Below, in pieces: positions 10,715 through 62,185 of a stretch of DNA of 64,000 nt; position 1 is the stretch's first letter, and every line of letters begins with the position of its first letter. The DNA comes from Prevotella herbatica. GTDB taxonomy: Bacteria > Bacteroidota > Bacteroidia > Bacteroidales > Bacteroidaceae. A program made the translations under genes and the position numbers. Location of the stretch: contig NZ_AP024484.1 of assembly GCF_017347605.1 (NCBI RefSeq), positions 1,269,501 to 1,333,500 of the forward strand, given 5' to 3'. Under the pieces are notes generated by a model that was given only the letters and a program-made list of their open reading frames with translations, searched no databases and was not told the origin of the DNA.

Positions 10715-11288
10715 ATCCTCCACACATAGCTTAAGCTATTATAAATCAGAACTTTAGCAGTGGAGGATAACCTCCACTATCATCCACTAACCTCCACTTA
10801 TTTCTGAATAAATCACATATTAGAACAAGGAATGCCATTTTACATGGCGTTTCTACGATACAAAGTTTGCGTTTCTACGACATAAAGTTTCCATTTCTAC
10901 GATCAAACGTTTGCGTTTCTACGATCAAACGTTTCCGTTCTATCGATCAAACGGAGTCTATTTCTACGTAAAACAGATGGAGTTTCTTTGAATTAATTAA
11001 AATCGCAGTAAGTATAATGTCTTTCATTCAAATATGGATATATCATACTTTGTTCTAGTTTCTAAAGTATTATAATATCTACAAAAGTAAGGAATGATAA
11101 ATACTTCAAGGAGTTTATGTAAACATATATTATCTTTTATTATTTTCAACAATTCATATTTATGCTTAGCACCAGCTATATATTTCTTATTGCTTTACAA
11201 AAAGGTGGAGGATAGTGGAGGTTAGTGGAAGATAACCTCCACTCTTAACATATTGCATATCAGATTATATCACTATGCGTGGAGGTTT
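10715..11288. repeat. Repeat element 1: imperfect inverted arms around a tandem array
   Basis: The left arm (about 10715-10800) and right arm (about 11203-11288) are imperfect inverted copies of roughly 85 bp, both rich in CCTCCAC/GTGGAGG blocks. Each arm also folds on itself (for example GTGGAGGATAACCTCCAC, 10759-10776). The core between them carries the 22-bp array. There is no ORF and no target-site duplication that I can see. It resembles a non-autonomous repeat or a protein-binding island; the class is unknown to me. Confidence 0.7.
10846..10987. repeat. Array of about six 22-bp tandem repeats (GCGTTTCTACGATCAAAC type)
   Basis: Consecutive units begin with variants of GCGTTTCTACGA and end with AAAGTTT or AAACGTTT. 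The two middle units are nearly identical and the outer ones decay. The units abut with no spacers, so this is not a CRISPR array. The 22-bp step, two helical turns, would put every unit on the same DNA face. Confidence 0.8.
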
Positions 11289-42290: not shown

Positions 42291-42745
42291 TTTTTTAGCT
42301 ACAGCATATATTTCTCTATATATAAGGTACGCATACACGCACGCGCACTACAGACTTTTTGAAATACTAGCGTCAAAGTATCGATTGACTGAATATCAAT
42401 GTGTTAGGTATCATTTCTACTGATAACAAGTGTTGATGAAAGTGTCGGTAAAATATAAAGCCAATCCATGTTGTTTTACCGAGTGATTAGGCCCATATCA
42501 CTCGGTAAAACAACGCAAAACGCATGCCAACACTTCGTAAAACGGATAGCGTTTCTACGTGAAAACGTGACACAAAACTTCAATTATCATGCATTTTCTC
42601 CGACACGTAATTATTACCAAAATGCAAAGTAACTTACTAGTAATCAGCAACTAGTCACTCCGACACTTATATTTTGAAAAGCCTGTAGTACGCGTGCGTG
42701 TATGCGTACCTTATATATAGAGAAATATATGCCATAGCTAAAAAA
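42291..42745. repeat. Repeat element 2: 69-bp inverted arms around a hairpin-bearing core
   Basis: The arms at 42291-42359 and 42677-42745 are inverted copies with about four mismatches in 69 bp. Each contains CTATATATAAGGTACGCATA. The 317-bp core has a perfect 17-bp hairpin (42471-42513) and one unit close to the 22-bp repeat of element 1 (GCGTTTCTACGTGAAAAC, 42549-42566). There is no ORF and no visible target duplication. Confidence 0.8.
42471..42513. repeat. Perfect 17-bp inverted repeat inside element 2
   Basis: TTGTTTTACCGAGTGAT (42471-42487) pairs with its exact complement at 42497-42513 across a 9-nt loop. No T tract follows, so a protein-binding site or RNA stem is more likely than a terminator. 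Confidence 0.8.
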
Positions 42746-60789: not shown

Positions 60790-61059
60790 GGTAATTATTT
60801 TTAAAGTCACAAATATTTATTAGTTAAATGAAGTCTGATGATGCTTTATGAGCACAATGTATTTTATTTAAGTTAATAATCTCAGTATATATTATATTTA
60901 TGTGACAAATCAGTTGAACCACTTTTCGTAAATATAGCCATGTCGAATTAAATAAATAGTCGATTTTTTTTTGTAACAAAATAATAGAATATCCTCTACC
61001 GACGCTGTAAAATATTGTTGTTTTGTTTATTAAATGCTAGAGGAGACCTCTATTCACCA

Positions 61060-61080
61060 AGTGATTAGGAGCTAATCACT
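61060..61080. repeat. Short perfect hairpin AGTGATTAG-GAG-CTAATCACT
   Basis: Two exact 9-bp arms (61060-61068, 61072-61080) with a 3-nt loop. The same AGTGATTAG string is in the left side of the element 2 hairpin and a related one is in the acpP-fabF repeat. Confidence 0.7.
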
Positions 61081-61162
61081 AATTTCGCACTGAAAAAGGC
61101 GATATTACCATAGCTACGCTTCTGCAGCAAACAATAACCATGTGTATTTGAATAACGCTCTG

Positions 61163-61982
61163 CCAGAAAAAGTTTTTTTAATGCCACTAATGTCATAATA
61201 TCACAAATCCTTTGTTTATCGGGCTTCAGCCAGTGACATTAAGTGACATTATCGGGGTAAAAGTGACATTAAACTCTAAATCATACCTGTTTTTGGCGAT
61301 TATTTGCAAAATATACAGCACATGTATAGACACTTTTTCGTTTATGATGGTCTGTACTTGCCATTGCGTGTACTATACTTCGCAATATGTTTAATTCTCA
61401 TCCCAGAACCCAACTGTAATAATAGCGATATTTATCATCAATTCTATTCTTGTCGTCTTATTGATAATCATTCGTTTACCTACGCCTAGTAATATACTTT
61501 TTCACGTTAGGTAATTCAATTGCTTAACGTGGGTAATTGAGTTATTCACGTTAGGTAACCCGATTACACACGTTGGGTAATCGGATTACACATGTGCTAA
61601 GGTAATCTTATTACACACACGCTGATGTAATCGAATTACCCAAAAGCTGAGACAATTTAGGTAATAGTTTGTGCAATCTATTTCTATATTTATTTGCATC
61701 CTTCAAAATCATTCTCTCATATTTACATATATGTATAGAGTCGATTTTTAAATTATTCATGCTGTTTAGGAAGCCCCGCCCTTATGTTCTATAAAACTTA
61801 ATAAGCACAAACATGTATTATGAAAATAGCATAATTGCGAAAAAAACGCAAAAAACAGGTATGATTTGGAGTTTAATGCCACTTTTACCCCGATAATGTC
61901 ACTTAATGTCACTGGCTGAAGCCCGATAAATAAAGGGTTTGTGACATTATAACATTAGTGACATTAAAAAAACTTTTTCTGG
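61163..61982. repeat. Repeat element 3: 134-bp inverted arms around a palindromic array
   Basis: The arms at 61163-61296 and 61849-61982 are inverted copies with about eight differences over 134 bp. Inside each arm AGTGACATTA occurs three times. The 552-bp core carries the GTAAT/ATTAC array. There is no ORF, no visible target duplication, and no transposase or recombinase nearby. Confidence 0.85.
61503..61666. repeat. Seven tandem palindromic units of about 22-25 bp (GTAAT-N3-ATTAC)
   Basis: Units follow one another from 61503. Most centre on a palindrome such as GTAATCGGATTAC, GTAATCTTATTAC or GTAATCGAATTAC, preceded by ACGTT(A/G)G or similar and followed by ACAC. The first two and last are degenerate. 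Spacing is about two helical turns. Confidence 0.75.
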
Positions 61983-62185
61983 TAAAGTCCCCCTTTATGG
62001 AGGATGTTACCCCAAAAAATAACGGAGCCCCCTTTATGGGGATTGTTCTTGAACTTTAGATCGAAATATGATGGTTTATCCTACACATAGAATAAACAAA
62101 TATTATTATGAACAACAATTATAACTTCACTTAATTGATTTAGATTAAGAATATAGTGATTTTTTAATAGAAATGATGCATTTTC

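Follow-up and report, generated by a model that had tools for sequence, protein, structure and literature searches.

The long inverted repeat at 61158-61987 of the window (the whole 64,000-nucleotide stretch of Prevotella herbatica DNA that was analysed) is best explained as a non-autonomous, internally deleted MITE of a 3.2-kb element that carries DUF6078 and VapE genes; its family has ISL3-type ends and was probably spread by an ISL3 transposase acting in trans. We put the probability of this reading at about 0.85. The novelty lies in the gene-carrying parent family more than in the MITE itself. The parent family had no name and seems to be undescribed: a literature search found no description of it, and searches for VapE or ISL3 combined with MITEs, inverted repeats or Bacteroidales returned nothing relevant.

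The element consists of 157-nt inverted arms, 90% complementary, with 516 nt between them. The first-pass annotation had described 134-bp arms of about 94% identity, each with three copies of a repeat, around a palindromic array. This description was borne out, as the outer ~137 nt of the two arms differ at only about ten positions, the inner side of each arm has three AGTGACATTA copies (exact or with one mismatch), and a palindromic array of six units lies between them; what had been missed is that the structure belongs to a dispersed MITE family with a gene-carrying parent. The outer edge of each arm contains three degenerate inverted copies of the inner repeat (TAATGTCACT), and each arm is thus a fold-back in its own right. 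When folded as DNA, most arms of the elements studied outperformed dinucleotide-shuffled sequences (z as low as -6.5) and some were weak; the left and right arms of the window copy gave z values of -1.7 and -3.3, respectively, and its core folded far better than shuffles (z -4.2). The features of the window copy are as follows.

61158 to 61314, plus strand: left arm, a fold-back with outer TAATGTCACT-type repeats, the centre CCTTTGTTTATCGGGCTTCAGCC and three inner AGTGACATTA copies
61831 to 61987, minus strand: right arm, the left arm copied in inverted form
61503 to 61645, no strand: palindromic array of six GGTAAT..ATTAC units (61510-61640) spaced 22-25 bp apart, a candidate protein-binding or origin-like array
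61284 to 61416, minus strand: what is left of the parent VapE gene at its 3' end (the final ~38 codons), partly inside the arm as in the parent
61429 to 61771, minus strand: remnant of the region that separates VapE from DUF6078 in the parent, with ~100 bp from the 3' end of DUF6078
61988 to 62029, minus strand: degenerate ISL3-type tail (GGCTCCGTTATTTTTTGGGGTAACATCCTCCATAAA, compare GGTTCTTCGTCAATTTAGGGGGATATCCTCC; E 0.003)
61053 to 61141, minus strand: arm remnant of family B, adjacent or nested at the left, with matches to family B MITEs and to the end of VapE in the B parent (L096 4872-4954)
60899 to 62099, no strand: entire inserted segment, as judged from the empty orthologous sites of Segatella paludivivens and the sister MAG

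The structure did not arise by chance, because the whole 820 bp recurs in the same genome in seven other near-complete copies at 72-86% identity. A genome-wide search, which had been suggested for the arm as a check, gave 81 matches to the window element in the 3.52-Mb, single-contig genome. These form 13 paired copies, most of them 0.78-1.1 kb long, plus roughly a dozen solo arms. We call these copies family A; they occupy intergenic positions. A lack of copies in related strains had been named as the outcome that would speak against the element, and the opposite was found: 91 matches in S. paludivivens DSM 17968 (G174) and 54 in a sister MAG, Prevotella MAG Gw_SlPrim_bin_161 (G175). A search of the element DNA against 35 genomes of the same genus yielded no full match and two short matches to the core array, both in G017. 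The window element has no intact gene, is multi-copy and is present or absent between relatives, as a MITE is. The MITE copies diverge by 14-28% and are therefore old.

A 3.2-kb copy in the same genome (G000:C1:1100205-1103380) contains two genes between family A arms. The first encodes a 150-aa DUF6078 protein (PF19555) and the second a 710-aa protein with BT4734-like_N (PF08800), VapE-like (PF05272) and DUF3874 (PF12990) domains, so that the layout is arm, DUF6078, palindromic array, BT4734-N/VapE/DUF3874, arm. No integrase or packaging-interference gene was found between the parent arms, where only DUF6078 and VapE lie. The parent unit of S. paludivivens shares 87% identity with it across 3.27 kb and has the same arms (84% complementary), and the flanks of the two parents do not match, which places them at non-orthologous loci. 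The parent with family A arms was found in three genomes, the third being MAG G175, whose contig holds just the VapE-proximal end. The family A VapE was also sought in viral contigs, with no match. Past the VapE-proximal parent arm lies a conserved ~45-bp tail (GGCTCACGC..GCGCAGA..CTGCAGAGAATAC; L021 7382-7430 and L140 6250-6300) that is not ISL3-like.

Along its core, the MITE runs colinear with the reversed parent: arm, VapE 3' end, intergenic array, DUF6078 3' end, arm. These colinear remnants of VapE and DUF6078 show derivation from a gene-carrying parent and make the window element the parent minus both gene bodies. The stretch at 61429-61771 matches the G000 parent with E 4e-28. The VapE remnant of the window copy is weak by tblastn (VapE residues 673-710, E 0.039) and gives a nucleotide match of E 2.8e-8; in another copy (L002) tblastn reached 5e-5. 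The deletion removed both gene bodies of the 3.2-kb parent and kept the arms, the array and both 3' stubs. We also considered that arms had merely been inserted on either side of a VapE gene, and rejected it on the colinear remnants of both genes in the MITE cores.

At the orthologous site of S. paludivivens (L178) the element is absent, and the sequences corresponding to window positions 60898 and 62100 are 6 bp apart; the orthologous site of MAG G175 (L179) is also empty, with a less precise junction. The 1.2-kb insertion includes, on the left, the arm remnant of family B, a second family whose parent carries another VapE gene at 1713801. Other family A copies have cleaner empty sites, which put the true ends about 50 bp beyond the arms, and the arm edge (CTCTACCAG) was rejected as the element end on this ground. 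The best copies have GGTTCTTCGTCAATTTAGGGGG at both ends. Their target duplications are A+T-rich and 8 bp long, with three pairs identical at 8/8 positions (AAAAATAA, AATTTATT and AAATGTTT) and two more pairs at 7/8; no duplication was found at L016 and L166, and just 6/8 positions agreed at L154 and L157. The last 22 nt of the terminal inverted repeats are intact in the better copies and degenerate in the window copy. The window copy has neither a clean terminal repeat nor a recognisable target duplication. On the right it ends in the degenerate tail, and the family B remnant has taken the place of its left side. It looks like an old, immobile member of the family.

Other repeats were noticed in the window. 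A second long inverted repeat at 42291-42745 has 126-nt arms (79%) that are 203 nt apart and is probably the second element of the first-pass annotation. Its sequence is not family A and contains a family-B-like GTGATTAGG motif; at the corresponding site, S. paludivivens (L157) and MAG G175 (L154) have a family A copy. A 22-bp repeat array (TTTCTACGATCAAACGTTTGCG) lies at 10846-10987, and 78 bp of it match at 90% a sequence beside a family A copy in MAG G175 (L158 2078-2155).

An 8-bp target duplication is typical of ISL3. S. paludivivens carries a multi-copy ISL3 IS (PF01610 transposase) with the end GGTTCTTCTCTAATTTAG, which the MITE end GGTTCTTCGTCAATTTAG resembles. Since the better copies combine GGTTCTTCGTCAATTTAGGGGG ends with 8-bp duplications, the simplest account of how the end-preserved copies spread is cut-and-paste transposition, with the ISL3 transposase acting in trans. 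We infer ISL3-mediated movement of family A from end similarity, from the 8-bp duplication and from a transposase that is present in the sister species only. No PF01610 transposase was found in the P. herbatica genome, so its copies are probably stranded now; none was found in MAG G175 either, and viral contigs and plasmids contained no ISL3 end motif. The intact parents are without ISL3 ends, and the ISL3 account therefore leaves the movement of the parent unexplained. MITEs in two other genomes (G161 and G105) have other tails, so ISL3 does not move such elements in general.

The association of VapE genes with long inverted repeats extends across Bacteroidales. We examined 54 loci chosen via DUF6078 and VapE and scored an ORF as bracketed when inverted repeats 60 nt or longer lay within 1.2 kb. 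Inverted repeats bracketed 18/25 VapE ORFs and 0/89 other large ORFs (controls of at least 350 aa), a plain contrast whose Fisher p of 1e-15 overstates independence, as some of the loci are related. The arm sequences are entirely different between most families. Most arms nevertheless follow a common plan, with short direct repeats outside, a centre, and the same repeats inverted inside. In 10/10 other genomes probed, the arm of the parent recurs elsewhere in the genome; gene-less arm pairs of 250-710 bp occur in G161, G105, G106, G068 and G176, while G034 has solo arms. In several parents, a palindrome separates DUF6078 from VapE. Arms also surround VapE genes that have no DUF6078 partner, in the B and C families and in Bacteroides finegoldii (L147), and VapE is therefore the constant partner.

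Several further loci were observed in this survey. A third family in the P. herbatica genome (L097 1433-5351; G000:C1:2234432-2238350) has a VapE gene without DUF6078 and several nested inverted repeats of up to 201 nt. DUF6078 genes often occur alone, without VapE (L100-L139, in other genomes), a genome can hold 5-7 of them, and a lone DUF6078 gene sometimes lies beside a single palindrome of ~60-140 bp (L120, L128 and L107). The record MT836291.1 (L145), listed as 'Bacteriophage sp.', contains a full arm-DUF6078-palindrome-VapE-arm unit. Its VapE motifs equal those of L130 (G068), and the record may represent a piece of bacterial DNA instead of a phage.

BT4734-like proteins form a family of archaeo-eukaryotic primases, and the PF05272 domain has been predicted to act as a helicase in mobile elements (PMC5862659). 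A phmmer search matched VapE to a solved protein (7pds) described as 'similar to D. nodosus vapE'. Both acidic residues of primase motif I (hhhDhD/E) were present in 0/18 full-length proteins aligned (LLTICNL in family A), which makes primase activity doubtful. In most DUF6078-linked VapEs, QG[YW]NK[ST] replaces the canonical P-loop, with Walker B intact. Four cysteines are invariant in 44/44 DUF6078 sequences, making it likely that DUF6078 is a zinc-binding protein, probably with a DNA-binding role. AlphaFold2 models of DUF6078 and VapE, built from 3- and 4-sequence alignments, had a pLDDT of 43, which is too low for interpretation. A literature search on DUF6078 found no paper.

The arms and the array may be cis-sites of the VapE/DUF6078 machinery, bound by VapE or DUF6078, with the arms serving as fold-back terminal sites and the array as an iteron-like site by the helicase gene. 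The window copy would then be a degenerate MITE whose cargo is a set of VapE-type cis-sites. The array had been proposed earlier to offer many sites for one dimeric protein, next to a proposal that the element acts as RNA. The DNA proposal came nearer: the array comes from the region that separates the DUF6078 and VapE genes in the parent, and iteron-like sites recognised by an element protein would be expected there.

It is also possible, though we hold it only tentatively, that the VapE/DUF6078 machinery itself replicates or mobilises the arm-and-array DNA through a rolling-hairpin or replicative intermediate, and that the ISL3 ends were a later addition. Gene-less arms with unrelated sequences occur in ten other genomes and lack ISL3 tails where the flanks were read, the arms are fold-backs, the parents of G000 and S. 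paludivivens do not occupy orthologous loci, and the VapE protein matches 7pds. However, ISL3-type ends with clean 8-bp duplications suffice for the window family, the DUF6078-linked VapEs have an atypical Walker A and lack a conserved AEP motif I, and no excised or circular form is visible. A broader suggestion, just as tentative, is that DUF6078-VapE units form a new class of small mobile elements in Bacteroidales without a recognisable transposase or integrase. In such a class, the VapE helicase would act on fold-back, family-specific arms and the array to replicate or mobilise the units and their gene-less derivatives, and the window element would be a derivative that acquired ISL3 ends.

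The intergenic copies and the regular spacing of the palindromic array might instead suggest a fixed regulatory or nucleoid-organising repeat of the host, a BIME-like array for one dimeric protein that is retained for host function. This is very improbable given the presence or absence of copies at orthologous sites, the target duplications, the internal deletions, the solo arms and the decayed gene remnants; host exaptation of single copies is possible. Least probable of all is that the arms act as an RNase III-processed RNA regulator, for although they are highly complementary and a transcript over both would fold into a long dsRNA stem, the internal remnants are decayed coding sequence, so that no selected RNA is needed, and an Rfam search of the window element found no family reaching threshold.

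In the cases tested, Bacteroidales genes widely annotated as 'BT4734/BF3469' or 'VapE domain-containing protein' mostly lie between long fold-back arms whose sequence is also scattered, gene-less, through the same genome. This gives an unnamed gene family a context, namely a small mobile element that has non-autonomous derivatives. For DUF6078 it suggests a role that can be tested, as a zinc protein binding the arms or the array. A class of striking intergenic regions with inverted repeats in Prevotella-type genomes is explained as fossils of such elements.

Parvovirus-type ITRs offer a resemblance only: the arms, with outer repeats, a centre and inverted inner repeats, can fold back, and an AAA+ helicase is encoded, but no nickase was recognised in the parent element and nothing points to a linear or single-stranded form. 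With BT4734-like primases the parent protein shares the fusion of an N-terminal PF08800 domain with PF05272 and PF12990, and differs in the motif I acidic pair, which is incomplete in 18/18 proteins. Like SaPI/PICI satellites, the parent has a VapE-like AAA+ helicase domain (PF05272; 7pds match) beside a repeat array. Unlike them, it is 3.2 kb long, with two genes only, long fold-back inverted repeats and no integrase or packaging genes. The window family resembles ISL3-family MITEs (8-bp duplications, GG..TCTT ends), with which it shares GGTTCTTCGTCAATTTAGGGGG repeats, A+T-rich 8-bp duplications, multiple copies without an intact gene, and a sister species in which a multi-copy ISL3 IS ends in a similar way. 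It differs from them in a host genome without ISL3 transposase and in its interior, which derives by deletion from a DUF6078-VapE element, complete with 157-nt arms of its own, rather than from an ISL3 transposase.
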